DNA of 41,372 bases from Gammaproteobacteria bacterium (lineage in GTDB: Bacteria; Pseudomonadota; Gammaproteobacteria; Steroidobacterales; Steroidobacteraceae): NCBI GenBank assembly GCA_028870275.1, contig JAGWPY010000174.1, forward strand, positions 1 through 41,372. Reading direction: 5' to 3'. The notes below the pieces were generated by a model, which ran no database searches, was not told the DNA's origin, and was given only the letters and a program-made list of their open reading frames with translations. The position numbers were made by a program, and so were the translations under genes. Shown piece by piece: positions 8,001 through 31,837 of this stretch (its first letter is position 1; every line of letters starts with the position of its first letter).

Positions 8001-9872
8001 GGCGACATGGCCGGCGATGTCTTCGGCAACGGCATGCTGCAGTCGCCGCGCATCCGCCTGGTCGCCGCCTTCAATCATCAACACCTGTTCATCGATCCGT
8101 CGCCCGATGCCGCGCGCTCGTTCCGCGAACGCGAGCGGCTGTTCAAGCTGCCTCGTTCCAGCTGGGAGGACTACTCCCGTGCGGCGATTTCCAAGGGCGG
8201 CGGGATCTACCTGCGAAGCGCCAAGAGCATCGCCCTGTCCCGCGAGGCCCAGTCCCTCCTCGGGCTTTCCGCGCAGACCACGCCGAACGAGGCGATCAAG
8301 GCGATCCTGCGCCTGCCGGTCGATCTGCTGTGGAATGGGGGCATCGGCACCTACGTGAAGGCGAGCCACGAGAGCCACTCGGACGTCGGCGACCGCACCA
8401 ATGACGCCGTGCGCGTCGACGCAAGGGAACTGCGCTGCAAGGTCATCGGCGAAGGCGGCAACCTCGGCCTGTCGCAGGCCGCGCGCGTCGAATACGCCCG
8501 GGGCGGCGGCCGTCTCAACACCGATTTCATCGACAACTCGGCGGGCGTGAACTGTTCGGACGTCGAGGTGAACCTGAAGATCCTCCTGAACGGTGCCATG
8601 CGCGCGCGCGAACTGTCGCGTCCGGCGCGCGACCGCCTGCTCGTGCGCATGACCGACGCGGTCGCGGCCCTGGTCCTGCGCAACAATTACCTGCAGAGTC
8701 AGGCGATCAGCATGGTCCAGCACCGTGCGCGCGAGAGATTGAGCGAGAGCGCCTTCCTGCTGCGCGCCCTCGAGCGCGCCGGCGATCTCGACCGGGCGCT
8801 CGAATTCCTGCCCAGCGAGGAGGAGATCGCCGAGAGGCGCAAGGCCGGCCAGGGCCTCACGAGGCCGGAGATCTCGATCGCGCTCAGCTACGGCAAGATC
8901 TGGCTGGATCGGGCGCTGATCGGCTCGAACGTGCCGGAGGACGCCTTCTTGTCCCACGAACTGTTGCGCTACTTCCCGGCGCCGGTTCGCAACCGGTTCG
9001 GGGCGCGCATCGCCCGGCATCCGTTGCGGCGGGAAATCATCGCCACCGCGGTCACCAACGAACTGATCAACCGTATGGGGCCGGCCTTCCCGGTCCGCGC
9101 GGCCGCCGACACCGGAGCGGATCCAGCGGCGATCGCCCGGGCCTACACGATCGCCCGCGAGGTCTTCGGCGCGCAGGCGATCTGGGCCCAAATAGAGTCG
9201 CTCGACGGCCGCGTCGCCGCTTCGGTTCAGTACGAGGCTCTCGACCAGATCGCGCGAATCCTGCGCCACATGAGCTATTGGCTGCTCGCCAATCGTCGCG
9301 ACGATCTCGACGTCGAACGCGGCGTTCGCCGTTATGCGACCGGTATCGGCGAATTGATGAGGGACCTGCATTCGATCCTGGGGACCCTCGAACGCGACCG
9401 TTTCGAGGCGCTGCGGATGCGGCTCGCCGGGGAACGCGTCCCCGACGCCCTCGCCGCGCACATCGCCGCACTGGATGCTCTGCACGGTGCATTCGACCTC
9501 GTCGAAGTGTCGCTGTCCGCCCGCGTCCCGGTCGGCTTCTCCGCCCAGGCCTATTTTGCGCTCGGCGAACGGGTCGGCCTCGCCTGGCTCAAGGAACAGA
9601 TCGAAGCGCTGGCGGTCGACGGCCACTGGCAGGCGGTCGCCCGCAGCACGCTGCGGGATTCCTTGTACGCGATGCATCGGCGCATCACGGAGTCGGCGCT
9701 CGCCGTCGCCCGTGGCTCCGCCGTCTCGCGCGTGGACTCCTGGTGCGCCCGCCGCCGCACCGAAATCGACTACCTGGCGAGCCTGCTGGCCGACCTGCGA
9801 GCCGGAGCCGGCACCGACTTCGCGACGCTGTCGGTCGCCCTGCAATCGGTGCGCCGGCTGGCCGGCGAATGA
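5049..9872 (+). CDS. gdhB: NAD-specific glutamate dehydrogenase, large 180 kDa type
   Basis: 1607 residues, the typical size of the 180 kDa NAD-glutamate dehydrogenases (family first described in Streptomyces and Pseudomonas). It oxidises glutamate to 2-oxoglutarate plus ammonia. It has a long N-terminal region with ACT-like regulatory segments, and a catalytic core around residues 810-1150. The core contains [33 protein letters not shown] and the nucleotide-binding [16 protein letters not shown], followed by the [16 protein letters not shown] segment. A long helical C-terminal domain ends the protein. The ATG at 5049 has AGGAGG eight bases upstream. The gene is complete, without frame breaks. 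It is followed 44 bases later by gpmA. Confidence 0.95.
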
Positions 9873-19424: not shown

Positions 19425-20732
19425 TCAGCTCGGATTCTCGAGACTGAACACCTCGTTGCCGTCGTCGTAGGCGAAAGCCTCGGCGTAGCGGCCCCAGTGG
19501 ACCACGGCGCGCAGCGTGTGCTCGGCGTCCTCTTCTCCCATGAAATCCTCGAGCTCGTCGATGAAGCGGGTCTTGCGCGCCGAATGCGAGGTCCTTTCGT
19601 CGAGCACGCGACGGATGTGGGCGGCGAGCGGCACATACGCGAGCAGATGTCGACGGAAGATGCGTTTGCGCTCGTCCTGATCGGCGTGGGCGAATGCGAG
19701 TCCGTCGTCGGTGATCTTGAGGTCGCCGCCCTCGAGTTCGGCGAAGCGCATCATCTGTAGGGTTTCGGCGACCGGAAACAGCTCGTCGATCTCCATCTGC
19801 AGATCCGAGGCGATCTCAGGCAGGTCGGCCTTGCCGTTGAACGGTGGCGCCGCCACCGCCTCGATCAGGCCGGCCTGGGCGTTCGACGAGACCGGCGGCA
19901 GCACGCTGCCGATACCGAGTCCCGGGAACCGCTCCTGCCGACCGACCGCCGCCGATCCCGTCGGCCGGGCGGTCATCTCCACGTAGATGCGTTCGACCTG
20001 GTCGCGGAAGCTCGGGTCCAGGCGGTTGCGCGGCTGCGGCAGCGCCACCTTGATCTCCGAGAGAATCCGTCCCGGGTTGCTGCCGAACACGAGGATCCGG
20101 TCGCACATCAGCACCGCCTCCTCGATGTTGTGGGTGACCAGCACGACACCCTTGATCGGCATGCGTCCCTCGGACCACAGGTCGAGGAAATCGGTGCGCA
20201 ACGTCTCCGCGGTGAGCACGTCGAGTGCGGAGAACGGTTCGTCCATCAGAAGGATGTTCGGGTGCACCACGAGCGCGCGCGCGAAGCCGACCCGTTGGCG
20301 CATGCCGCCCGACAACTCGCGCGGATAGGCCGACTCGAAGCCGTCGAGGCCGATCAGGTCGATCGCCGCAAGCGAGCGCTTGCGGATCTCGGCCTTTGGC
20401 ATGCGCTGCGCCTCGAGTCCCAGGGCGACGTTTTCGTAGACGGTGAGCCAGGGAAACAACGCGAAACTCTGGAAGACCATCGCGATGCCGGGCGCCGGTC
20501 CGTAGATCGGCTGGCCGAGGTAGGACAGTTCGCCGGCGCTCGGCTCGGCCAGGCCGGCGATCAGGCGCAACAAGGTCGACTTTCCGGACCCCGAGCGGCC
20601 GAGCAGGCCGATGATCTCGCCCTCGTGGATCTCGAGGTCCATGCCCTCGAGCACGAGGAGCTCGCCGCCGTCGGGCTTCGGGAAAGCCTTGCGGATGCCG
20701 GTGCATTTGAGGAGCGCTGCGCTGCCGTTCAT
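19425..20732 (-). CDS. ABC transporter ATPase with C-terminal AAA-associated domain (NitT/TauT type)
   Basis: 435 residues. The N-terminal 250 are a NitT/TauT/SsuB-class import ATPase: Walker A GRSGSGKST (45-53), Q-loop VFQSFALFPW, signature LSGGMRQ (140-146), Walker B ILLMDEP (160-166). The remaining part has the AAA-associated domain found on a subset of these ATPases, with a LPEIASDLQMEIDELFPVAE-like start and an acidic tail (FMGEEDAEHTL). The role of that extra domain is unknown. It energises the adjacent two-module permease gene, which ends 10 bases before this start. The substrate is undefined. Nitrate, sulfonate or bicarbonate are only family analogies. Confidence 0.88.
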   Translation of the reverse strand: MNGSAALLKCTGIRKAFPKPDGGELLVLEGMDLEIHEGEIIGLLGRSGSGKSTLLRLIAGLAEPSAGELSYLGQPIYGPAPGIAMVFQSFALFPWLTVYENVALGLEAQRMPKAEIRKRSLAAIDLIGLDGFESAYPRELSGGMRQRVGFARALVVHPNILLMDEPFSALDVLTAETLRTDFLDLWSEGRMPIKGVVLVTHNIEEAVLMCDRILVFGSNPGRILSEIKVALPQPRNRLDPSFRDQVERIYVEMTARPTGSAAVGRQERFPGLGIGSVLPPVSSNAQAGLIEAVAAPPFNGKADLPEIASDLQMEIDELFPVAETLQMMRFAELEGGDLKITDDGLAFAHADQDERKRIFRRHLLAYVPLAAHIRRVLDERTSHSARKTRFIDELEDFMGEEDAEHTLRAVVHWGRYAEAFAYDDGNEVFSLENPS

Positions 20733-20742
20733 CGCCAGGCCT

Positions 20743-22497
20743 TCAGGTCAGCCGAAACTTGCGCTCGGCATAGTAGTACAAAGGTCTCCAGAACAGCCGG
20801 TTCAATGCGACGACGAACAGGCTCATCACGCCGACACCCAGGACGATATGGTGAAAGTTGCCCGCCGCGGTCGCATCCGCGATGTAGGACCCCAGGCCCC
20901 GCGCCTCGATCGTCGTGTGGCCCCAGGAGACCAGCTCCGCAACCTGCGCGGCGTTCCAGGATCCTCCGGACGCGGTAATCGCGCCGGTCACGTAATACGG
21001 CAGAACGCCGGGCAGAGCGACTTTTCGCCACCATAGCCAGCCGCGCAGGCCGAGGTTGGCCGAGGCGTACCGCAGCTCGGTCGGCAGCGCCGCCGCGCCG
21101 GCGATCACGTTGAAGAGGATATACCACTGCGTGCCGAGGATCATCAGCGGACTGAGCCAGATGTCCGGCTTCAATTTCAGCACGACGATCCCGTAGATCG
21201 CGATCGGAAACAGGAGGTTCGCGGGAAACGCCGCCATGAACTGCGCGATCGGCTGTACGTACTCCGCGACCCGCGGCCTGAGGCCCACCCAGACACCGAT
21301 CGGCACCCAGATGAGGCTCGCCAATCCGATCAATACGAACACCCGCACCATCGTGAGCAGCGCGAGCGTGACGACGTGGAGGAATTCCCGCAGTCCCGTA
21401 TTGGAGACCAGGTCCGCGGCGAGGCGCCAGACGCCGAGCAGCACCAGGACGGCAACCAGCGCGACCCAGATGCGGTCCTTGCCGCGACTGCGCCGCAGAC
21501 CCTGCGGGTCCGGCGGCGGCGGGTCGTAACGCTGAACGACGCGGCTGGTCCAGAGCACGGTCGCATGGAAGGCGAGCCTCGCGGCCTGGATCAACCGCGA
21601 CCGGCGCATCATCGTCAGTGCCCAGGACTGCGGCTCGCGCAGGCCGGGCTCCTGTTCGACGCGGAACCGGTCGACCCAGGCCACCAGCGGTCGGAACAGC
21701 AGCTGATCGTAGGCCAGGATCACCAGGAACATCGTCAGGATCGCCCAACCGATCGCCTTCAGGTTGCGCTGCTCGATCGCCAGGGCGATGTATGAACCGA
21801 CGCCGGGCAGGGTCACGCTGGTCCGCCCCACGCTGATCGACTCCGAGGCGACCACGAAGAACCAGCCGCCGGACATCGACATCATCATGTTCCAGATCAA
21901 CGCCGGCAGGCCGAACGGTACCTCCAGTTGCCAGAATCGCATCCAGGGCGAGAGTCGGAACGACTCCGCGGCCTCGGACAGCTCCGTCGGAATCGTGCGC
22001 AGCGACTGATAGAAGCTGAACGCCATGTTCCAGGCCTGGCTGGTGAAGATCAGGAAGATCGAGGCGAACTCGGCTCCCAGCACCCGGCCCGGCGCGAGCG
22101 ACATGAAGAAGACGTAGGTCACCGACAGGAAGCCGAAGATCGGCACGGATTGCAGGATGTCGAGGATCGGTACCAGGAGCTTGCCGGCCCGTTCGCTCTT
22201 CGCGGCCCAGGTCGCGTAGGTCAACGTGAACACCAGCGAGGCGAACAGAGCGATGAGCATGCGCAGCGTGGTCCGCGCCGCATACATCGGCAGGAAGTAC
22301 GGGTCGAGCGACATCGGCGTGACGCGCAGCTGCGCGAGCGGCACGAACATGCCGCGGGCGGCGTTGCCGAGGAAGGCGATCAGGCCGATGACCACGACGA
22401 ACGCGGCGAGATCCCAGCGGGAGGCGAGATCCCGCAGGAAGCCGAAGGGCTCGAAGCGCGGCGCCGCGGCGCCGGATTCTGGCGTGGAGTCGCTCAT
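20743..22497 (-). CDS. ABC transporter permease, two fused permease modules
   Basis: 584 residues with about twelve membrane helices. It has two binding-protein-dependent transport (BPD) modules in tandem. The first holds AESFRLSPWMRFWQLEVPFGLPALIW (about 175-200), the EAA loop that docks the ATPase. The second has the matching ANLGLRGWLWWRKVALPGVLPYYVTG near residue 500. Between them is a basic linker. Fusion of both halves into one chain is seen in a subgroup of NitT/TauT-like importers. No periplasmic binding protein gene accompanies it here. The start MSDSTPES at 22497 is preferred over the upstream ATG at 22536, which adds a non-conserved basic stretch. Confidence 0.87.
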   Translation of the reverse strand: MSDSTPESGAAAPRFEPFGFLRDLASRWDLAAFVVVIGLIAFLGNAARGMFVPLAQLRVTPMSLDPYFLPMYAARTTLRMLIALFASLVFTLTYATWAAKSERAGKLLVPILDILQSVPIFGFLSVTYVFFMSLAPGRVLGAEFASIFLIFTSQAWNMAFSFYQSLRTIPTELSEAAESFRLSPWMRFWQLEVPFGLPALIWNMMMSMSGGWFFVVASESISVGRTSVTLPGVGSYIALAIEQRNLKAIGWAILTMFLVILAYDQLLFRPLVAWVDRFRVEQEPGLREPQSWALTMMRRSRLIQAARLAFHATVLWTSRVVQRYDPPPPDPQGLRRSRGKDRIWVALVAVLVLLGVWRLAADLVSNTGLREFLHVVTLALLTMVRVFVLIGLASLIWVPIGVWVGLRPRVAEYVQPIAQFMAAFPANLLFPIAIYGIVVLKLKPDIWLSPLMILGTQWYILFNVIAGAAALPTELRYASANLGLRGWLWWRKVALPGVLPYYVTGAITASGGSWNAAQVAELVSWGHTTIEARGLGSYIADATAAGNFHHIVLGVGVMSLFVVALNRLFWRPLYYYAERKFRLT

Positions 22498-22552
22498 GGC
22501 TGCATCGACGCGGCGAGGCCGGCGTAAAGTCGGCATTCTCGCAGGACAAACG

Positions 22553-22609: not shown

Positions 22610-23878
22610 ATGCAAGACGGTCCGGCGATCGACGCAGGCGCGGCGGACACCTCATCCGGTGAGGCGGCCTCCGCGGACGGCACCCGGTTCAGAGTGCTCG
22701 GGGCGATCAGTTTCTCGCACTTCCTGAACGACATGATCCAGTCGCTCATCGTGGCGATCTATCCGTTGCTCAAGGGCACGTTCGCGCTCTCGTTCACGCA
22801 GATCGGCCTGATCACGCTCACCTACCAGCTCTGCGCCTCGATGCTCCAGCCGGCGGTCGGGGCCTATACCGACCGCCATCCCCAGGCGCACGCGCTCAGC
22901 GCCGGCATGAGTCTCACGCTCGCGGGACTGCTCGCGCTCGCCTTCGCACCCAGTTACGGCTGGGTACTGGTCGCCGCCGCGCTGATCGGCTGCGGGTCGG
23001 CGATCTTCCACCCCGAATCCTCGCGGATCGCCCGGCTCGCCTCCGGTGGGCGGCACGGGCTCGCGCAGTCGATCTTCCAGGTCGGTGGCAACACGGGCAG
23101 CGCGACCGGGCCGCTGCTCGCCGCATGGCTCATCATGCCCCGCGGCCGCGGCAGCGTCGCGTGGTTCGCGATCGCGGCGCTGGTCGCCGCGACGGTGCTG
23201 TGGAACGTCGGTGGCTGGTATCGCCGCCAGCACCTTTCGGGCGGCCGCCCCGCCCGACCCCAGGTCCCGAGCCCCGTGCCGCGGTCGGTCGCGCTTCGTT
23301 CGCTGGCGATTCTCCTGGTGCTGATCTTCTCCAAGTATTTCTATCTCGCCAGCATCGGCAGCTATTACGCCTTCTACCTGATGCACAAATTCCACCTGGC
23401 GGCCACCAGCGCGCAGATCTACCTGTTCGTGTTCCTGTTCGCGGTCGCGCTCGGCACCGTATTCGGCGGGCCGGTCGGCGACCGCATCGGCCGCAAGCGG
23501 GTCATCTGGGCATCGATCCTCGGCGTGGCGCCGTTCACCCTCGTCCTGCCCTACGTCGATCTCGAATGGACCATGATCCTCAGTTTCCTGATCGGCCTGA
23601 TCCTCGCCTCGGCGTTTTCCGCCATCCTCGTCTACGCGCAGGAACTCTTCCCCGGCAAAGTGGGCACCATATCGGGCCTTTTCTTCGGGCTCGCGTTCGG
23701 CGTGGGGGGCATCGGCGCAGCGGTGCTCGGCGCGCTCGCCGACAGCCGCGGTATCGAGTTCGTCTACCGGCTTTGCGCCTTCCTGCCGCTGCTCGGCGCG
23801 GCGGCCGCGTTCCTGCCGGACATCGAGCACGGGCGGACGCGCAACGCCCTTGAGCCCGCCGGCGGGCCAGGCGGCTAG
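22610..23878 (+). CDS. fsr: MFS exporter of the fosmidomycin resistance (Fsr) type
   Basis: 422 residues, about 12 membrane helices after a 25-30 residue hydrophilic N-terminus. The first helix region reads LGAISFSHFLNDMIQSLIVAIYPLLK, then ALSFTQIGLITLTYQLCASMLQPAVGAYTDRHP, as in Fsr of E. coli and relatives. FHPESSRIARLASGGRHGLAQSIFQVGGN and the second-half motif GGPVGDRIGRKRVIW confirm an MFS antiporter. Known members export fosmidomycin, and the natural substrate is unclear. The TAG stop overlaps the stop of the convergent hydrogenase-like small subunit gene inside CTAG (23875-23878). Confidence 0.88.
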   Translation: MQDGPAIDAGAADTSSGEAASADGTRFRVLGAISFSHFLNDMIQSLIVAIYPLLKGTFALSFTQIGLITLTYQLCASMLQPAVGAYTDRHPQAHALSAGMSLTLAGLLALAFAPSYGWVLVAAALIGCGSAIFHPESSRIARLASGGRHGLAQSIFQVGGNTGSATGPLLAAWLIMPRGRGSVAWFAIAALVAATVLWNVGGWYRRQHLSGGRPARPQVPSPVPRSVALRSLAILLVLIFSKYFYLASIGSYYAFYLMHKFHLAATSAQIYLFVFLFAVALGTVFGGPVGDRIGRKRVIWASILGVAPFTLVLPYVDLEWTMILSFLIGLILASAFSAILVYAQELFPGKVGTISGLFFGLAFGVGGIGAAVLGALADSRGIEFVYRLCAFLPLLGAAAAFLPDIEHGRTRNALEPAGGPGG

Positions 23879-24396
23879 GCGCCCCGCGCGGCCTCGATCA
23901 CCGTCAGCAATCCCGCGAGCAGCCGCGTCGGGCTCGGCGGACAGCCTGCGATCGTCGCATCGACCGGGATCACGTTGGAGATGCGTCCGAGGCTCTCACC
24001 GCTTTCGCCGAAGACCCCTCCCGTGGCGGCGCAATCCCCGACCGCCACCACGAGCTTCGGGTCGGGCGTCGCCTCGTAGGTGCGCAGCAGCGCCTCGCGC
24101 ATGTTGCGCGTCACCGGCCCCGTCACGAGCAGCAGGTCGGCATGGCGCGGACTCGCCACGAACCTCACCCCTAAGCCTTCGATGTTGTAGATCGGATTGC
24201 CGAGCGCGTTGATCTCGAGCTCGCAGGCATTGCACGAACCGGCATCGACCACGCGAATGCACAGTGCCCGCCCCAGGATCTCGAGGATCCGGCCCTGCAG
24301 GGCCTCGCGCTCACGCGCCGCGGCTGCGGCGCTCGCCGCGGGGGGCGGTTCGCTCACGCAACCGACGCGTCGGATCTTCTGCAAGGTCTTCAGCAT
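23875..24396 (-). CDS. hyfI: Group 4 hydrogenase/complex I-like small subunit (NuoB/HyfI type)
   Basis: 173 residues, last gene of the operon. It matches the NuoB/HycG/HyfI small subunit that carries one 4Fe-4S cluster next to the large subunit. All four likely ligands are present: C55 and C58 (GSCNACELEINAL), C122 (VVAVGDCAATGG) and C152 (IAGCPPSP). The CxxC spacing is the hydrogenase-type form, not the adjacent CC of respiratory complex I. An Ala-rich stretch near residues 20-28 is unusual. It starts seven bases after the large subunit stop. With an intact cluster it should still transfer electrons even though its partner has no NiFe site. Confidence 0.88.
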   Translation of the reverse strand: MLKTLQKIRRVGCVSEPPPAASAAAAAREREALQGRILEILGRALCIRVVDAGSCNACELEINALGNPIYNIEGLGVRFVASPRHADLLLVTGPVTRNMREALLRTYEATPDPKLVVAVGDCAATGGVFGESGESLGRISNVIPVDATIAGCPPSPTRLLAGLLTVIEAARGA

Positions 24397-24403
24397 GGCG
24401 CCC

Positions 24404-25885
24404 CTAGAGATCGTGTCCGCTGTAGGACAGGTTGAACGACTTGTTGATCAACGGGAAGTCGGGGACGATGTTGCCGATGATCGCGTGCTCGAGCACCGGC
24501 CAGTTCTGCCAGGACGGGTCGTGCGGGTGACAGAACCGGATCCGGCCCGCCTCACCGATCGACAGCGCCACCAGCACCGGTCCGCGCCAGCCCTCGACCA
24601 GTCCGACCCCGAACCCGTCCTCGCATGCGGGCGGCGGCGCGATCGACTCGCCCGCCGGCAGCCCTTCGAGTATGCGCCCGACCAGCCGGCAACTTTCGGC
24701 AAGCTCTTCGAACCTCTGTTCGACACGCGCGGCGACGTCGCCGCCGGTGGCGCCGCATTTCGCCGGGCCGAGGCGATCGTAGGGCGCCCACGGACGGTCG
24801 ATGCGCAGATCCTGAGCCTGACCACTCGCGCGACCCGCGAGACCCGTGAGCCCGAGCCGCGCGGCGAGTTCCGGCGTGACCGTTCCCGCGCCCGCAAACC
24901 GGTCGCGCAGCCCCGCATGTTCGTCATAGATCGAACGCAGCTCGATGCTCTCGGCCGCCACCGCGGTCACCGTGTCCGCCAGGACCGCGGCGCCCGAGCG
25001 ACTCAGATCCACGCGCATGCCACCCGGCGCCACGGCATCGAGCAGGTAGCGTTGCCCCAGAGCGGTCTCGCTTGCCCGCAGCACCTGCTCCTTCAGCCGG
25101 GAGAACTGCGTCAATCCGAACGCGAAACCCGCGTCGTTGCCGAGCGCGCCGAGGTCGCCGAGGTGGTTCTCGATCCGTTCGAGCTCGAGCGCGAGCGCGC
25201 GCAGCCAGGCGGCGCGCGGCGGAATCTCATGCTTCGAGGCGCCCTCGAGCGCCTGGCAGTAGGCCCAGGCGTAGGCAACCGCCGAATCGCCGCTGACGCG
25301 CGCCGCGAGCCGATGGCCCTCGAGTGCGTCGAATTCGCGGAATCGCCGCTCGATATCCTTGTGCGCGTAACCCAGCCGCTGCTCGAGCCGCAGCACCTTC
25401 TCGCCGACCACGGAGAAGCGGAAATGCCCCGGCTCGATGATGCCCGCATGAACGGGGCCGACCGGGATCTCGTGCACCCCATCGCCCGCGACGCGCACGA
25501 ACGGATAGTCGCCGCCATCACCGTGACGCAGCCATGGCCGCGGGTCCATGGCCGAGGCCCGCAGGCCGACCAGGTCGCGCACCGCGCGCTGCATGCGCGC
25601 GGCGAATGGAAAGAGGTCCTGCAGACCCGGGTATTCGCTCGACGAATCATCGCCGGCGCCGCAGCCGAGCGCCGCGATCAGCAGGCCGTGCGCGGCATCG
25701 TAGGCCGCGAAGACCGTCGGCTCGCCCGCCTCGCCGCCCTGCCCCCATAAGGCCAGCAGGCGTGCGCCGGCCGCGGCGAAGTCCTCGGCGATGGCGCGCC
25801 ATTCGCCGCGACCGGCCCGCACCAGGCGCGCTCCGGGTGCGCCACCGATCGGCCGGCCACGATCGAACCAGGCCCGGTGCCCCAA
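24404..25885 (-). CDS. hyfG: Hydrogenase-like large subunit lacking all NiFe ligands (HyfG/NuoCD type)
   Basis: 493 residues: an N-terminal NuoC-like part (about 1-115) and a NuoD/hydrogenase large-subunit part. In true group 4 hydrogenases the NiFe centre is held by RVCGxC-type and DPCxxC motifs. Here the first reads RVSGDS (S198, S201 in place of both Cys). The C-terminal end reads NLSYSGHDL (S487 and G490 in place of both Cys). None of the six cysteines in the protein can replace them by position. H2 chemistry is therefore not expected. The start is TTG 25885, with GGAGGAGG at 25892-25899 inside the end of hyfF. The frame upstream of it only shadows hyfF. The residue substitutions are seen directly. 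The lost activity follows from known enzymes. Confidence 0.88.
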   Translation of the reverse strand: MGHRAWFDRGRPIGGAPGARLVRAGRGEWRAIAEDFAAAGARLLALWGQGGEAGEPTVFAAYDAAHGLLIAALGCGAGDDSSSEYPGLQDLFPFAARMQRAVRDLVGLRASAMDPRPWLRHGDGGDYPFVRVAGDGVHEIPVGPVHAGIIEPGHFRFSVVGEKVLRLEQRLGYAHKDIERRFREFDALEGHRLAARVSGDSAVAYAWAYCQALEGASKHEIPPRAAWLRALALELERIENHLGDLGALGNDAGFAFGLTQFSRLKEQVLRASETALGQRYLLDAVAPGGMRVDLSRSGAAVLADTVTAVAAESIELRSIYDEHAGLRDRFAGAGTVTPELAARLGLTGLAGRASGQAQDLRIDRPWAPYDRLGPAKCGATGGDVAARVEQRFEELAESCRLVGRILEGLPAGESIAPPPACEDGFGVGLVEGWRGPVLVALSIGEAGRIRFCHPHDPSWQNWPVLEHAIIGNIVPDFPLINKSFNLSYSGHDL

Positions 25886-25887
25886 CT

Positions 25888-27351
25888 TCAGCCTCCTCCG
25901 AGCAGTTGCGCGGCGGCCCGGTACCAGTCCGCGAGAAACGGCGGAATGAACAGTCCGAGCATCAGCACGATCAGCAGATGGGTGAACACCGGCAGCAGCG
26001 CCGGCGAATGCGGCAGGCGGCGCAGACGCGTCTCGCCGAACACCATCGGCTGGACCCGCTGAAGAATCGCCGCGAATGCGACCGCGAACGAGATCAGCAG
26101 GATCGGCGTCGCCCAGGGCTCTGTGCGCATGGCGGTGGTGAGGATCAGGAACTCGCTCGCGAACACCCCGAATGGCGGTACGCCGAGGATCGCCAAGGCG
26201 CCGATCATCAGACCCCAGCCGACCGAGGGACTGATCGTGACCAGGCCGCGGATGCGGTCCATCAACTGCGACCCGGATTTCTGCGCGGCGTGACCGGCGG
26301 CGAAGAAGATCGCCGATTTCGTCAGCGAGTGGACCGTCATGTGCAGCAGTCCGGCGAAGTTCGCCACCGGCCCCCCCATGCCGAACGCGAACGAGATCAC
26401 GCCCATGTGCTCGATCGAGGAATAGGCGAACAGGCGCTTGATGTCCTGCTGACGCCAGAGCGAGAACGAGGCGACGACGACCGTCAGCAGCCCGAAGCCC
26501 ATCAGCATCGCCGACGGCCAGGCCGAATGCAGTGCGCCCTCCGCCAGTACCTTGCAACGCATCACCGCATAGATCGCCACGTTGAGCAGCAGTCCCGACA
26601 GCACCGCCGAAATCGGCGTCGGGCCCTCGGCATGCGCGTCGGCGAGCCAGTTGTGCAGCGGCACGAGACCCACTTTCGTGCCGTATCCGACCAGCAGGAA
26701 GACGAACGCGATGCTGAGCACCCGGGGTTCGAGCTGCGATTTCACCGCATCGAGATGGGTCCAGAGCAGCGCGCTCGCACCGCTCGCGCCGAGCGCGCGC
26801 TCCGCGGCGATGTACAGCAGCACCGTCCCGAACAGCGCCTGGGCGATGCCGACGCCGCACAGCACGAAATACTTCCAGCCGGCGGCGAGGCTCGCGGGAG
26901 TGCGGTACAGCGCCACGAGCAGCACCGTGGAGAGCGTCGCCGCCTCCATCGCCACCCACATGAGACCGAGATTGTTGGTGGTCAACGCGAGCAGCATGGT
27001 CGCGATGAACAACTGGTACATGCAGTGGTAGAGCCGCAGCCGGCCGGGGGTCATGCGCCGATCGGCGGTCTCGATGCGCATGTACGGCCGCGAGAACAGC
27101 GAAGTCGTCAGGGCGACGAACGCGGTCAGCGTGACCAGGAAGACGTTCAGCGGGTCGACGAAGAACTGTTCGCCGCCGGCGCTCATCGCGCCGCGCGTGG
27201 CGACCCGGACACTGAGGGCAGCCGCGGCGGCGAAAGTCACCAGACTGAAGGCCACGTTGAGCTCGGCCGCCCGCGGTCGCGCGCCCAGCATGGCGAACGT
27301 CGCCGCGCCGACGACCGGCGAGCCGAGCAGCAGCCAGAGAGCGAGGGTCAC
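25888..27351 (-). CDS. hyfF: Antiporter-like membrane subunit HyfF (NuoN/NuoL family)
   Basis: 487 residues, about 13-14 membrane helices, of the Mrp/complex I antiporter-like family. Conserved elements are WVAMEAATLSTVLLVALYR with the buried glutamate, and GTKVGLVPLHNWLADAHAEGPTPISAVLSG (about 222-250) with the pumping lysine and histidine. FAYSSIEHMGVISFAFG and HSLTKSAIFFAAGH follow. These residues form the proton/sodium path in relatives. The start is GTG 27351, overlapping the hyfE stop as GTGA. The open frame upstream only shadows hyfE. The stop is three bases before the hyfG start, so hyfF and hyfG are coupled. Confidence 0.9.
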   Translation of the reverse strand: MTLALWLLLGSPVVGAATFAMLGARPRAAELNVAFSLVTFAAAAALSVRVATRGAMSAGGEQFFVDPLNVFLVTLTAFVALTTSLFSRPYMRIETADRRMTPGRLRLYHCMYQLFIATMLLALTTNNLGLMWVAMEAATLSTVLLVALYRTPASLAAGWKYFVLCGVGIAQALFGTVLLYIAAERALGASGASALLWTHLDAVKSQLEPRVLSIAFVFLLVGYGTKVGLVPLHNWLADAHAEGPTPISAVLSGLLLNVAIYAVMRCKVLAEGALHSAWPSAMLMGFGLLTVVVASFSLWRQQDIKRLFAYSSIEHMGVISFAFGMGGPVANFAGLLHMTVHSLTKSAIFFAAGHAAQKSGSQLMDRIRGLVTISPSVGWGLMIGALAILGVPPFGVFASEFLILTTAMRTEPWATPILLISFAVAFAAILQRVQPMVFGETRLRRLPHSPALLPVFTHLLIVLMLGLFIPPFLADWYRAAAQLLGGG

Positions 27352-28013
27352 GGCGCCTCCCGGCGGGATTCGAGCCGGTCGAGATCCAGACTGTCGAACT
27401 GCTCGCGGATCTGGAAGAAGAACACGCCGAGCACCAGCATCGCCACCAGAACGTCGAGCGCAACGCCGAGTTCCACGATCATCGGCATTCCATAGCTCGC
27501 GCACATCGCCCCGAAGAACAGCCCGTTCTCCATCGACAGGAATCCGATCACCTGCGACATGGCCTTGCGGCGCGTGATCATCGTCAGGAACGCCAGCAGT
27601 ATCACGGCGATCGCGATGCCGATCGCGCTGCGCGTCGCGGTGCTGGCGAGAGCCGAGATCGGTTGGGCGAGGCCGAACGCGAACACGACGATCGGCACAC
27701 CCACCAGCATGGTTCCGGAGATGTTCAGCAGAGGATCCGTATCCCAGTAGACGCCGAGGCGGCGGATCATCGCATGCAGCAGGCGCGGCAGGGCGATCAC
27801 CTTCACCGACAGGGTCAGCGCCGCCGACAGGTAGAGATTGACCTCGCCGGTGCGCCATGCGAGCAGCAGCGTCGCGGCGCACAGCACCGCCCCCTGCAGC
27901 GCGAACAGGTCGACCAGGGTGACGATGCGCCGCTGCGCGAGCATCGCGAAGGACAGCAGGAGCAGCAATGCGGCCAGCGAGTCGAGCAACTGCATCACCA
28001 GAGGCGGGATCAC
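27348..28013 (-). CDS. hyfE: Membrane subunit HyfE (NuoK-related)
   Basis: 221 residues with about six to seven membrane helices. It has the NuoK-like core of HyfE: LSAALTLSVKVIALPRLLHAMIRR in the first half, FLSMENGLFFGAMCASYGMPMIVELGVALDVLVAMLVLG in the second, with the buried glutamates of SMENG and VELG typical of the NuoK proton path. The C-terminal tail is hydrophilic and acidic (SLDLDRLESRR). The start is GTG 28013, four bases after the hyfC stop. The stop overlaps the hyfF start (GTGA). It links the NuoH-like subunit to the antiporter-like subunits in the membrane arm. Confidence 0.87.
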   Translation of the reverse strand: MIPPLVMQLLDSLAALLLLLSFAMLAQRRIVTLVDLFALQGAVLCAATLLLAWRTGEVNLYLSAALTLSVKVIALPRLLHAMIRRLGVYWDTDPLLNISGTMLVGVPIVVFAFGLAQPISALASTATRSAIGIAIAVILLAFLTMITRRKAMSQVIGFLSMENGLFFGAMCASYGMPMIVELGVALDVLVAMLVLGVFFFQIREQFDSLDLDRLESRREAP

Positions 28014-28017
28014 GGCT

Positions 28018-28968
28018 TCAGTCTCCGAGGAGCAGATGGACGAGCATGCCGAGCACGGCCAGCAGGAACGCGGTCGCCAGGAACTCCGGCGCGCGGAATA
28101 CCCGCAATTTCGCCGAGACGGTCTCGATCGTCGCGAGGGCCGCCCCGGCGAGCGCCAGTTTCGCGCCGAGCGCCGGCAATGCGAGCGCCAGGGCGAGCGG
28201 TCCGGACCGGCCCGTGGCGCTGCCCCAGGGAAGGAACAGCGCGAAACCGATGCAGGCGTAGTTGAGCAGCTTCAGGCTGGCGGCGAACTCCATCAACGCC
28301 AGGTGCCGCCCCGAATACTCGAGGACCATGGCTTCGTGGATCATCGTGAGTTCGAGGTGCGTCGCCGGATTGTCGATCGGGATCCGGGCATTCTCGGCGA
28401 GCAGCACCATCGTGAACGCGACGCCGGTGAAGGCGAGGCTCGGCGACAGCTCGAGCGGGCGCAGCGCCAGATGTTCCGAGATCACCGGCAATGCGGTGGT
28501 CGCCGAGATCAGCGAGGCGACGAAGACCACCATCAACAGGGCGGGCTCGGCGAGAAATCCCACCATCATCTCCCGGCGCGCACCGAGCGTGCCGAACGGC
28601 GTGCCGACGTCCATCGCGGCGAGCGCGAGGAACACCCTCGCGGTCGCGAACAGGCCGACCAGCACGATCGCGTCTGCAGCGGCGCCCATCGGCAAGCGCG
28701 TGCCCATCGAGGGGATGACGGCCGCGGCCGCCAGCATCGCCGCGAAGACCACGTAGGGTGCGGCGCGAAACAGCGGCGATGCCTCGCGGGCGATCACCGG
28801 ATCCTTGTGCAGGAGCTTGCGCAGTCCGAGATACGGCTGCCACAAAGACGCGGCTCGCCGGTTCTGCAGCCAGGCGCGGCACTGGTTCACCCAGCCGAGG
28901 AACAGCGGCGCCGCGGCCAGCGCGACCGCGACCGCGAGCGCCTGCGTGAACCAGTCGATCGGCCTCAT
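28018..28968 (-). CDS. hyfC: Membrane subunit HyfC (NuoH-like, complex I subunit 1 family)
   Basis: 316 residues, about eight membrane helices. It has the NuoH/HyfC/HycD features: QPYLGLRKLLHKDPVI in the first cytoplasmic loop, ALAAMDVGTPFGTLGARREMMVG, AENARIPIDNPATHLELTMIHEAMVLEYSGRH (about 185-215) with the conserved charged residues that contact the hydrophilic arm, and LMEFAASLKLL. This subunit anchors the small/large subunit pair and couples its chemistry to ion movement. ATG 28968 overlaps the hyfB stop (ATGA). Confidence 0.9.
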   Translation of the reverse strand: MRPIDWFTQALAVAVALAAAPLFLGWVNQCRAWLQNRRAASLWQPYLGLRKLLHKDPVIAREASPLFRAAPYVVFAAMLAAAAVIPSMGTRLPMGAAADAIVLVGLFATARVFLALAAMDVGTPFGTLGARREMMVGFLAEPALLMVVFVASLISATTALPVISEHLALRPLELSPSLAFTGVAFTMVLLAENARIPIDNPATHLELTMIHEAMVLEYSGRHLALMEFAASLKLLNYACIGFALFLPWGSATGRSGPLALALALPALGAKLALAGAALATIETVSAKLRVFRAPEFLATAFLLAVLGMLVHLLLGD

Positions 28969-31028
28969 AGCACGAGCACCAGAGCGAGCAGCAGGCACAG
29001 AGTGACCAGCGCATACAGCAGGAAGGTGGCGATGCGGCCGCGCTGCAGCGCCGCGAGCGCGCCCGCCACCCGGTCGGTCAGTGGTGCGAGCGGCGCGTAC
29101 AGGACGTTCCAGAAGCGGTCGCCGATCGTCACTTCGTAGCGTGGCTCCGCGTCGAAGGGCGAGGGAAGCGCGCGGCGCATCGCAAAGAACGGCGCGAACA
29201 GGTGCCGGATCGGCTGGCCGAACCCCTCCGCCGTATCCTGGGTGCGGCCGGAAAGGCCGGCGCCGCCACAGGCCCAGGGCTCTGCCAGGCGCACGCGACG
29301 GCGGTAGACGAGGCGGAGCACGAACGAGGTCGCGGCCACCGCCGCGAACAGGGTCGCGGCGATCACCGGCGCGGCATAGGAAGCCTGCCGGGCATCGAGC
29401 GGCACCAGCATCCACCAGCCGGCGGCCGGCCGCGGGAGCGCGCCGACCCCGAGCCACTGCGCGACCCCGGCGAGCACCGGCACGACCGCGGCCGGCAGCA
29501 GGCCGAGCAGCACGCAGCCGAGCGCGAGCCAGCCGAGGCCCAGCCGTTCGGCGAAACCGGCATCGTGTGCATCGGCGAGCGCCGCTTCACGTGCTCGCCC
29601 GAGGAACACCACGCCGAAGAATTTCACCATCACGTACCCGGCCAGCGCCGCGATCAGCGCAACCAGGCCGAGACCGAGCGGCAACAGCATGTTCACGAAC
29701 GGATACGGAACGGCGTGCGAGGCGAGGAAAGCCTGCAGCAGGAGCCATTCGGACACGAAGCCATTGAGCGGCGGCAGACCGGCGATCGCCAGGGCGCCGA
29801 CCAGCGTGAGCCAGGCGACCCAGGGCATGCGGTGGATCAGTCCGCCGAGCCGGCCGAGATTGCGCTCGCCGGTCGAATGCAGCACCGCTCCGGTTCCCAG
29901 GAACAGCAGGCTCTTCATGAACGCGTGATTGATCGCGTGATAGAGCACGGCGACCAGCGCCAGCGCGGCGAAGGTCGGCATCGATGCGCCCCGGAACACC
30001 ATGGCGAGACCGATGCCGGTGAACAACAGACCGAGGTTCTCGATCGACGAATAGGCGAGCAGCCGCTTCATGTCGGTCTGGGCGGCCGCGAAGGCGATGC
30101 CGTAGAGCGCTGAAAACAACCCGAGCGCGACCGGCACCAGTCCCCACCACCAGGGAAGACCGCCGATCAGGTCGAACGCGACCCGCAACAGGCCGTACAC
30201 CGCCATCTTCAGCATCACGCCGCTCAGCAGCGCCGAGACCGGTGAGGGGGCGGCCGGGTGCGCCTCCGGCAGCCAGGCGTGCAGTGGTACGAGTCCGCCT
30301 TTCGCACCGAAGCCCGCCAGGGCCAGCAGGAACGCGGCGCCCGCCCAGGCCGGCGGCAAGTGCGCGCCGCGCATCGCGTCGAATGTGAACTGCCAGCTCC
30401 CGCCCTGCAGCACTCCGAAGCAGAGCAGGATCGCGAGCGCGCCGACGTGCGCCATCACCAGATAGAGGTATCCGGCGCGGCGGATCTCCGCGATGCGATG
30501 CTGTGCGATCACCAGGAAATACGAGGACAAGGCCATCGTCTCCCAGGCGATCATGAACGCGTAGGCGTCGTCGGCGAGGAGTACGAGTCCCATGCTGGCG
30601 AGGAACACGTGATACTGGAAACAGAGCAGACCGGGCGGCGTGCCCTCGCCGGATCGGAAATAGCCCGCCGCGAACACCGATATTCCGGCCGAGGCCGCCC
30701 CGAGCAGGACCAGGAAGATCCCCGACAGCGGATCCAGCCGGAGGTGCATCGGCAGATCGGGCAGGCCGAACGGCAGCACGACCCTCGTGGGCGCGGCGCC
30801 GAGATTCGCCGCGGCGACCACCGCGATCGCGACCGATACGAGCGCACCGAGCGGAAACAGCGTGCGCCCTGCGAACCGCAGGCTCCCCGGCCGCACGAGC
30901 CCGGCGAGGCCCACGACCAGCCAGGCGGCGAGCAGCGCGAGGACCTCGGCCAACGCGGATGCGGATGTCGCGCTCAACTGCGGATCGCTCGCCTCGATGG
31001 ATTTGAACCGGATATGCGCCGAATGCAA
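28965..31028 (-). CDS. hyfB: Antiporter-like membrane subunit HyfB (NuoL family), first gene of the operon
   Basis: 687 residues, about 16 membrane helices. Family features are MIAWETMALSSYFLVI with the conserved glutamate, FGAKGGLVPLHAWLPEAHPAAPSPVSALLSG (about 240-270) with the pumping lysine and histidine, and LAYSSIENLGLLF. The hydrophilic C-terminal region around SLAEPWACGGAGLSGRTQDTAEGFGQPIRHLFAPFF is typical of HyfB/HycC. Start uncertain. TTG 31028 opens the frame and lies close behind the predicted -10, while TTG codons further in (before SATSASA and AEVLALL) would give shorter but still complete proteins. Together with HyfF it gives the complex two antiporter-like channels; HyfD is absent. 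Confidence 0.88.
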   Translation of the reverse strand: MHSAHIRFKSIEASDPQLSATSASALAEVLALLAAWLVVGLAGLVRPGSLRFAGRTLFPLGALVSVAIAVVAAANLGAAPTRVVLPFGLPDLPMHLRLDPLSGIFLVLLGAASAGISVFAAGYFRSGEGTPPGLLCFQYHVFLASMGLVLLADDAYAFMIAWETMALSSYFLVIAQHRIAEIRRAGYLYLVMAHVGALAILLCFGVLQGGSWQFTFDAMRGAHLPPAWAGAAFLLALAGFGAKGGLVPLHAWLPEAHPAAPSPVSALLSGVMLKMAVYGLLRVAFDLIGGLPWWWGLVPVALGLFSALYGIAFAAAQTDMKRLLAYSSIENLGLLFTGIGLAMVFRGASMPTFAALALVAVLYHAINHAFMKSLLFLGTGAVLHSTGERNLGRLGGLIHRMPWVAWLTLVGALAIAGLPPLNGFVSEWLLLQAFLASHAVPYPFVNMLLPLGLGLVALIAALAGYVMVKFFGVVFLGRAREAALADAHDAGFAERLGLGWLALGCVLLGLLPAAVVPVLAGVAQWLGVGALPRPAAGWWMLVPLDARQASYAAPVIAATLFAAVAATSFVLRLVYRRRVRLAEPWACGGAGLSGRTQDTAEGFGQPIRHLFAPFFAMRRALPSPFDAEPRYEVTIGDRFWNVLYAPLAPLTDRVAGALAALQRGRIATFLLYALVTLCLLLALVLVL

Positions 31029-31271: not shown

Positions 31272-31318
31272 TCGCGCCCGCGGCCGATACCTCAAGGAAC
31301 CCATGCCAAGGAGTGACC

Positions 31319-31837
31319 ATGCCGCGCAACGACAACCGTTATTCGGGCCTGATGATCGCGATCCACTGGACCACCGCGGTCCTGGTGCTGGTCGCATATC
31401 TCGTCAGCGAATCCTCCGAACACTTCGGCCAGCATCCGCCGGTGCTGCATTTCGCCTGCGGGCTCGCGGTGCTGGCGCTGGTGGCCGTGCGACTGCTCGC
31501 GCGCGCATCGGGCGGCGCACCGCGGCCTCTCGAGGGCGGGCCGTCCTGGCTCGCCATGCTCGCGAAGCTCGGCCACTTGACGCTCTATCTGCTGCTGATC
31601 GCGGTGCCGCTGACGGGATGGTATGCGCTGTCGCGGCTGGGACGTCCGATCGATCTCTGGGGTGTTTCGATACCGCCGATCGCCGCAGCGGTCAAAGGCG
31701 ACATCGGCGAGATCGGCGACGTGCACCAGGTCGGCGGCAATCTGCTGCTGATTCTCGCCGGGCTGCATGCGGCGATGGGCTTGTGGCATCAGTTCGTGCG
31801 CCGCGATCACGTGCTCGAGCGCATGCGCCCGTTCTGA
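31319..31837 (+). CDS. Cytochrome b561 family membrane protein
   Basis: 172 residues, four membrane helices, of the bacterial diheme cytochrome b561 (CybB/YodB) family, which oxidises or reduces quinones at the inner membrane. The opening RYSGLMIAIHWTTAVLVLVAY places H16 as a heme ligand. H44 (VLHFACG), the histidine in AKLGHLTLYLLL, that in DVHQVGGNLLL and that in LAGLHAAMGLWHQF complete the usual set. It starts at ATG 31319 with AAGGAG five bases upstream, in preference to GTG 31313, which lies within that ribosome site. It is 47 bases after the RHH gene, so the two may be co-transcribed. Confidence 0.88.
   Translation: MPRNDNRYSGLMIAIHWTTAVLVLVAYLVSESSEHFGQHPPVLHFACGLAVLALVAVRLLARASGGAPRPLEGGPSWLAMLAKLGHLTLYLLLIAVPLTGWYALSRLGRPIDLWGVSIPPIAAAVKGDIGEIGDVHQVGGNLLLILAGLHAAMGLWHQFVRRDHVLERMRPF

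Follow-up and report, generated by a model that had tools for sequence, protein, structure and literature searches.

An Ehr-type, hydrogenase-4-like complex from a Steroidobacteraceae genome whose large subunit appears to hold a remodelled pocket at the former NiFe site

What could be the task of a complex that is built like a hydrogenase and whose large subunit has no cysteine at the NiFe ligand positions? This question is raised by contig JAGWPY010000174.1 (assembly GCA_028870275.1) of a gammaproteobacterium of the family Steroidobacteraceae, whose 41,372 nucleotides were analysed as a whole and are called here the window. A hydrogenase-4-like unit of six genes occupies positions 23875-31028 of its minus strand in the order ehrA-ehrB-ehrC-ehrD-ehrL-ehrS (from 31028 down to 23875), and the products are hyfB-, hyfC-, hyfE-, hyfF-, hyfG- and hyfI-like, respectively. 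All six frames are open, and neighbouring genes overlap by 4 nt or are separated by a few nt; re-checking the frames bore out the gene positions given by an earlier reading that was made from the DNA letters alone (the sequence-only reading). That reading had also noted a fit to the hydrogenase-related (Ehr) complexes, and the lack of CxxC pairs in the large subunit, the HyfE- and NuoL-like subunits and the gene set ehrABCDLS support the view that the unit almost certainly encodes an Ehr complex.

The former ligand positions of the large subunit were located with E. coli HycE (PDB 7z0s_E), which matches EhrL residues 105-490 with an E value of 3.4e-46 and places RVSGDS on RVCGIC and NLSYSG on DPCYSC, so that S198, S201, S487 and G490 occupy the positions of the four NiFe cysteines. 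The alignment with HyfG gave the same positions, as had been claimed from the motifs RVSGDS and NLSYSGHDL, and a second alignment with HycE, HyfG, NuoCD and the NuoD of the source genome led to the same assignment. The ligand motifs of group 4 [NiFe] hydrogenases (RxCGxC and DPCxxC) are thus missing from EhrL, and comparison with HycE, HyfG, MbhL and NuoCD/NuoD revealed no intact cysteine pair at the ligand positions. The EhrL alignment was composed of 116 rows, i.e. the window, 80 loci from named records and 35 further loci (two of the loci, L046 and L082, are apparently one contig), and excluded five loci of a second type (L077-L081). The four ligand columns contain no cysteine in 104 rows, one in 12 rows and two or more in none; column 198 holds S (97 rows), C (11), A (7) or V (1), column 201 holds S (98), T (15), A (2) or C (1), and cysteine is found at 487 and 490 in none of the 116 rows. 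In the single-cysteine rows (e.g. L042, L052, L057 and L061) the residue stands mostly at 198, without a partner. The statement that every ligand had been lost is therefore exact for the window, but about one in ten of the relatives retains one cysteine. Across this alignment the ligand loss is neither a product of chance nor a sequencing error.

The former NiFe pocket seems to be remodelled rather than empty, with D200, N481, K482 and N485 among its residues. H146, E151, H175, D200 and D244 are invariant in all 116 rows, and D492 (115 rows), N481, K482 and Y488 (114 each) and N485 (113) are nearly so, the exceptions at the C-terminal residues including L051, whose C terminus is garbled. When compared with HycE, HyfG and NuoCD, H146, H175 and D492 are common to all three, E151 and Y488 are common to HycE and HyfG, and D200, D244, N481, K482 and N485 are matched in none; the latter five also differ in all five second-type proteins compared. 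E151 aligns with E21 of MbhL, a position that is Gly in Nqo4, and D251 is also shared with MbhL. In complex I, H38 and Y87 of Nqo4 are described as holding the quinone headgroup (PMC7684303), and they align with I150 (116/116) and G199 (G in 113 rows, A in 3), i.e. EhrL lacks the quinone-headgroup His and Tyr of the 49-kDa subunit. Judged by E151, I150, G199 and the pocket set, the EhrL site is neither that of a hydrogenase, nor that of complex I, nor that of the membrane-bound sulfane sulfur reductase (MBS). The C-terminal SYSGHDL of EhrL takes the position of CYSCTDR, which directly precedes the tails of HycE and HyfG; a hydrogenase-like C-terminal tail as in these two proteins is missing from EhrL in the alignment, and NuoCD likewise ends there. 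The tail is cleaved off by HycI after the Arg of CYSCTDR. An AlphaFold2 model of EhrL (mean pLDDT 84.4) gave HycE residues 9-537 as best solved fold match (VIA Z 41.1, root-mean-square deviation 2.4, 479 residues).

The small subunit, in contrast to the ligand positions of EhrL, keeps its cysteines, as the sequence-only reading had stated. C55, C58, C122 and C152 of EhrS align with cysteines of MbhJ and HycG and were found in 113, 113, 112 and 111 of 113 rows, respectively, the remainder being gaps. The CxxC spacing, which is seen in all 113 rows, is that described for hydrogenases, whereas complex I has adjacent cysteines and MBS a three-cysteine cluster (for MBS, PMC7684303). On account of this spacing the EhrS cluster should be fully ligated, unlike that of MBS, and since the arrangement is neither that of complex I nor that of MBS, the cluster appears to serve as a relay and not as the catalyst.

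With regard to the source of electrons, Pfam and NCBIfam scans of the six ehr genes found no counterpart of NuoI, NuoE, NuoF or NuoG, and no formate dehydrogenase, ferredoxin or hyp gene. The 80 named loci, in many of which the flanks are short, were searched with the pattern CxxCxxCxxxC and the matches were judged by eye. Seven flanking frames matched, and the three that are ferredoxin-like (L134, L145 and L150) lie at least 3.8 kb from the unit; 11 further matches fell inside the spans, where only that of L099, in an adjoining second-type cluster, looks ferredoxin-like. Hence, with flanks often short, no ferredoxin-like protein was recognized by eye less than 3.8 kb from an Ehr unit except in L099, and the sole match in the window is off frame. 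No ferredoxin subunit is encoded with the unit; either Ehr has no electron input at all, or a protein whose gene lies elsewhere must provide it.

The membrane subunits had been said to keep their ion-path residues intact, which holds for the main Glu, Lys and His of the two antiporter-like subunits: E163, K243, H368 and E427 of EhrA are each invariant in 92 rows, and E136, K226, H315, H341 and E400 of EhrD in 105 rows. It does not hold for K274 of EhrA, which is Lys in 81 of the 92 rows, nor for the two NuoK Glu tested in EhrC, which aligned with no Glu in an alignment that is doubtful. The position of NuoM K265/NuoN K247 is an invariant Asn in EhrD, as in HyfF. The cytoplasmic loop of EhrB carries a three-residue insert with respect to HyfC, HycD, NuoH and MbhM, and HycD and MbhM were the only solved relatives of EhrB found by sequence; the first His of this loop is shared by four of the five second-type loci.

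The ratio of nonsynonymous to synonymous substitutions (dN/dS, NG86, seven within-genus pairs) was 0.03-0.25 overall (ehrL, 0.17-0.23; ehrS, 0.10-0.25; ehrD, 0.05-0.15; ehrC, 0.06-0.12; ehrB, 0.03-0.15; ehrA, 0.07-0.23). Given these values, the retained EhrS cysteines and the invariant pump residues, the Ehr complex is under purifying selection and is maintained rather than decaying. The earlier judgement that the locus does not represent decay thus agrees with the open frames, the low dN/dS and a gene order that is the same in many lineages.

Close EhrL relatives were detected in 11 of 40 genomes of the genus and family, the source genome included, and in a class sample 31 of 229 genomes matched EhrL at E 1e-30; subtracting the source genome and G187, which has the second type only, left 29 carriers. 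A scan of named records yielded at least 574 relatives, of which the best 80, mostly metagenome-assembled genomes (MAGs) whose titles were taken as given, are named as Beta-, Gamma- and Alphaproteobacteria, Nitrospirae, Acidobacteriaceae/Granulicella, Deltaproteobacteria and Mariprofundus. The order ehrA-B-C-D-L-S was found in all 62 of these loci with a whole unit, 58 of which stand alone and 4 beside a second cluster or other ehrA-like (hyfB-type) matches; the remaining 18 loci show a partial unit, mostly cut by contig ends. Exceptions in the arrangement are L148 (ehrC-ehrD-gap-ehrL-ehrS, with ehrA and ehrB undetected there), L157 (about 1 kb between ehrL and ehrS) and L090 (the hyfC-like ehrB in three pieces), and in L159 and L072 ehrL alone was detected. 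A quick tree, in which the outgroups had long branches according to a program warning, separated the 116 EhrL rows from HycE, HyfG, two NuoD and the five second-type proteins by a branch supported with SH-aLRT 100; the MAG loci titled Nitrospirae and Deltaproteobacteria fell in the EhrL clade. Among 72,556 plasmid records, 62 matched EhrL at E 1e-40 and name cultured carriers. Cultured carriers of ehrABCDLS include Rhizobium johnstonii 3841 (pRL11, RL_RS31255 to RL_RS31230), Cupriavidus metallidurans CH34, Paraburkholderia phymatum STM815 and Azospirillum brasilense. The C-terminal motif of EhrL, again lacking the CxxC pair, recurs in seven plasmid loci; a pattern for the first motif matched six of these, likewise with the cysteines missing, and gave no match in Methylovirgula. 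HycE relatives were tried as hydrogenase controls from the same class and discarded, since only three genomes passed E 1e-70 and all three loci are themselves Ehr.

Ehr complexes have been more widely reported than the sequence-only reading could know, and the unit belongs to this published kind. Ligand-less Ehr has been described in Margulisbacteria and relatives (PMC6349859), in about half of the Nitrospirales genomes (PMC12342949), and in comammox Nitrospira, Sulfobacillus, CPR (candidate phyla radiation) bacteria and some ammonia-oxidising archaea; Ehr is also reported from Methylacidiphilum, where it was named ehrABCDLS, M. tuberculosis and Geobacter. Judging by the published descriptions, the complexes of Geobacter, Methylacidiphilum, Sulfobacillus and Nitrospirales share with the present one the ligand-less large subunit, the HyfE- and NuoL-like subunits and the A-B-C-D-L-S genes, although for Geobacter seven locus numbers (GSU0739-45) are listed as against six genes here. 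The papers on comammox Nitrospira, M. tuberculosis, Sulfobacillus and Nitrospirales (PMC12342949) state the function of Ehr as unknown or undetermined, and since Ehr is already in print in these terms, the window provides a new member and not a new kind.

The comparison with better known systems places Ehr beside each of them and within none. E. coli hydrogenase-3/-4 offers homologous HyfB, C, E, F, G and I and, with HycE, the best solved match to EhrL in sequence and fold, but Ehr has no NiFe ligands, no counterparts of hyfA, hyfD and hyfH and no C-terminal tail, and its EhrB loop differs. The membrane-bound hydrogenase (MBH) of Pyrococcus furiosus supplies MbhJ, the best match of EhrS, and MbhL, whose E21 is the counterpart of E151 and which shares D251 of EhrL, and unlike Ehr it keeps the four NiFe cysteines (PMC7684303). 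MBS of the same organism is a case of like kind, a group 4 relative without NiFe that is nevertheless energy-transducing, and its large subunit (6u8y_L) gave a profile match to EhrL with E 1.3e-39; however, MBS is described as keeping two cysteines, having no E21 equivalent and carrying a three-cysteine, shortened-motif cluster (PMC7684303), and Ehr differs on each point, with CxxC spacing in every EhrS row and E151 in every EhrL row. Complex I has the core fold in common with Ehr, and NuoCD and NuoD stop, like EhrL, before the hydrogenase tail; Ehr differs from it in the quinone-headgroup residues and in that its unit lacks counterparts of NuoI, NuoE, NuoF and NuoG.

The most likely reading, to which we give about an even chance, is that Ehr acts as an ion-motive oxidoreductase whose electrons are supplied by a soluble carrier, in the following way. 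A soluble one-electron carrier would dock on EhrS, whose single [4Fe-4S] cluster would conduct electrons to or from a substrate bound in the former NiFe pocket, which would be lined by S198/D200/S201 and N481/K482/N485/Y488 and still be supplied with protons via E151. By way of the EhrB loop the change in charge would then reach EhrD and EhrA and move ions, the reverse, ion-driven direction being equally allowed. The substrate would most likely be a quinone bound otherwise than in complex I, or another small polar acceptor. Several observations weigh against this proposal. The pocket segments 143-153, 169-172 and 490-493 of the EhrL model are of low confidence and its C terminus is poor; a unit that encodes no electron-input subunit would be in keeping with a non-redox machine as well; and the neighbourhood and co-occurrence tests found no substrate or partner of Ehr. 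In the class sample (29 carriers versus 199 others, p values uncorrected for kinship), the association with ribulose-bisphosphate carboxylase/oxygenase (RuBisCO) was nil (16/29 versus 98/199, p 0.69), and a RuBisCO link as a general rule was rejected. The associations with HypD (16/29, p 0.068) and FdhD (12/29 versus 49/199, p 0.072) were weak. HypD is missing from 13 of the 29 carriers, 11 of these 13 being at least 95% complete, and from 5 of the 11 carriers in the genus and family; FdhD is missing from 17 of the 29, 16 of them at least 95% complete.

The absence of an input subunit from the unit, together with the intact antiporter-like subunits, would also suit a cation/proton antiporter, or a device for pH homeostasis, that derives from the hydrogenase; the Fe-S cluster would then be structural or serve as a redox sensor, and EhrL would turn nothing over. 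A role in pH homeostasis has been suggested for ehrABCDLS of Methylacidiphilum, but the invariant pocket residues, unseen in the hydrogenases and complex I compared, and the proton-relay Glu would be difficult to account for if EhrL performed no chemistry, and we regard this possibility as rather doubtful. It is unlikely that Ehr forms a formate-linked complex into which electrons of formate dehydrogenase enter, as hypothesised for Margulisbacteria (PMC6349859) and hinted at for Geobacter, where proteomics are reported to show Ehr subunits more abundant on formate. The FdhD counts lean in this direction and the source genome has FdhD, yet more than half of the carriers lack it, and no formate dehydrogenase was present in 20 Pfam-scanned flanking proteins (of 683 flanking open reading frames called).

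An inorganic-carbon machine, in which Ehr would drive CO2 hydration or bicarbonate uptake, was considered because of two loci. In a Thiobacillus MAG (L112:2621-13383) a SulP gene, ehrABCDLS and a homologue of the carboxysome shell carbonic anhydrase form a row, followed by LysR-like and Mrp antiporter-like genes, and 79 bp separate the end of SulP from the matched part of ehrA; in L070:6031-8864 such a homologue directly follows ehrS, and purE/purK-like genes come next. Inorganic-carbon functions are carried out by other complex-I-like modules in NDH-1MS and DAB, and purE/purK-type reactions use CO2 or bicarbonate. Of 66 loci, 7 have SulP in their flanks, with 6 changes on the tree, which is no stronger than the pattern of metG (11 loci, 9 changes); as the latter is equally scattered on the same tree, SulP adjacency was rejected as a specific association and kept only as a lead. 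The names metG, purE, purK and pckA of neighbouring genes are our presumed assignments. Moreover, the match to carbonic anhydrase is weak (36-37 bits for TIGR02701, whose cut-off is 241; PF20686 above cut-off only in L112; E 0.031 for the best solved match), the homologue occurs in three of the 229 class genomes, two of which are without Ehr, it stands in L070 beside purE/purK-like genes as well, and RuBisCO shows no association. A carbon function is thus improbable, and its fullest form, a third complex-I-derived inorganic-carbon machine whose metal-free pocket (D200, K482, N485 and E151) would handle CO2 or bicarbonate while EhrA and EhrD pump ions, with SulP and carbonic anhydrase homologues as partners in some autotrophs, is improbable to about the same degree.

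Finally, Ehr is very unlikely to be a hydrogenase, as the sequence-only reading had argued, because it has no ligands and no HycE/HyfG-like tail and 13 of the 29 carriers lack HypD, and the probability of a hydrogenase with an unusual metal site is very low: HycE is the best solved match and HypD is present in the other 16 carriers and in the source genome, but no row has Cys at 487 or 490, and Ehr expression in Nitrospira moscoviensis is reported as not raised by H2 (PMC12342949).

What the present comparison may add to the published picture is the invariant pocket set, a site that combines the kept proton-relay Glu with the loss of the quinone residues, a unit that encodes no input subunit, and the names of cultured carriers. 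Ehr is widespread and occurs in soil heterotrophs as well as in records named after iron and sulfur oxidisers. The pocket has now become a short list of residues for mutation, with ordinary cultured strains named, and the published question of the Ehr reaction becomes testable. The features of the locus are collected in Table 1.

Table 1. Coordinates in the window of the ehr genes and of the sequence features discussed
Feature	Position	Strand	Remarks
ehrA (hyfB-like), NuoL-family antiporter-like subunit	28965..31028	-	687 aa from TTG 31028, true start maybe about 20 codons later; NCBIfam NF005086, 832 bits (cut-off 667), residues 25-685
ehrB (hyfC/NuoH-like), membrane anchor	28018..28968	-	ATG 28968, overlaps ehrA stop; Pfam PF00146, 104 bits
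ehrB cytoplasmic loop HLELTMIH	28336..28359	-	both His in 96/96 rows
ehrC (hyfE-like), membrane subunit, 221 aa	27348..28013	-	NF008556 'hydrogenase 4 membrane subunit', E 2.4e-26, under cut-off; no match in Pfam scan
ehrD (hyfF-like), antiporter-like subunit, 487 aa	25888..27351	-	NF005045 'hydrogenase 4 subunit F', 834 bits (cut-off 543)
ehrL (NuoC-NuoD/HycE-like), large subunit, 493 aa	24404..25885	-	HycE match E 3.4e-46
ehrL E151, aligned with MbhL E21 (proton relay to NiFe)	25433..25435	-	invariant, 116/116
ehrL R196-V-S198-G-D200-S201, former first CxxC	25283..25300	-	D200 in 116/116
ehrL C terminus DFPLINKSFNLSYSGHDL, D476-L493, former second CxxC	24407..24460	-	N481, K482, N485, Y488 near-invariant
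ehrS (NuoB/HycG/MbhJ-like), small subunit, 173 aa	23875..24396	-	PF01058, 108 bits; MbhJ E 2.2e-36
ehrS cluster cysteines C55, C58, C122, C152, hydrogenase CxxC spacing	23941..24234	-	conservation over 113 rows

The ehrL gene starts with TTG and is preceded by GGAGGAGG, the end of which lies 6 nt from the start. On the plus strand, a major facilitator superfamily (MFS) transporter gene (22610-23878) converges end to end on ehrS, while on the ehrA side a cytochrome b561 gene (31313-31837) points away from the unit. The source genome is a 2.9-Mb assembly, 86% complete, which has an ordinary NuoD-family gene on a contig other than that of ehr and, outside the ehr unit, matches to the RuBisCO family, HypD and FdhD.

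The Ehr neighbourhood differs between lineages. A small helix-turn-helix gene lies upstream of ehrA in 8 of the 35 further loci and also in Rhizobium and Methylovirgula. On the Methylovirgula plasmid pHY1 (L182:1-14013) the Ehr unit has as neighbours an operon for F0F1 ATP synthase with AtpZ/AtpI and a fae gene, which may point to an ion circuit. One contig (L093:4759-19440) carries two complete six-gene Ehr units in tandem. The second-type large subunits of L077-L081 read RVSGVGSV...FGLTIAGCDR or ...SVAENDR, without CxxC pairs, at 30-37% identity and in a different gene arrangement; in L099:325-3675 and L126:2-4350 a cluster of similar identity (known by identity, not by ligand columns) adjoins the six-gene Ehr unit, and that of L099 carries the ferredoxin motif. 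In public plasmids (L178, L183 and L184) EhrL is annotated inconsistently as NADH-quinone oxidoreductase subunit C, nickel-dependent hydrogenase large subunit or HypE.

Elsewhere in the window, an ATP-binding cassette (ABC) transporter ATPase with an AAA_assoc_C domain and a BPD_transp_1 permease lie at 19428-22536 on the Ehr strand, beyond the MFS gene; loci of the same genus were the only ones in which close copies of the block were seen. A large-type NAD-glutamate dehydrogenase of 1607 aa is encoded at 5049-9869, after 2-oxoacid dehydrogenase genes.

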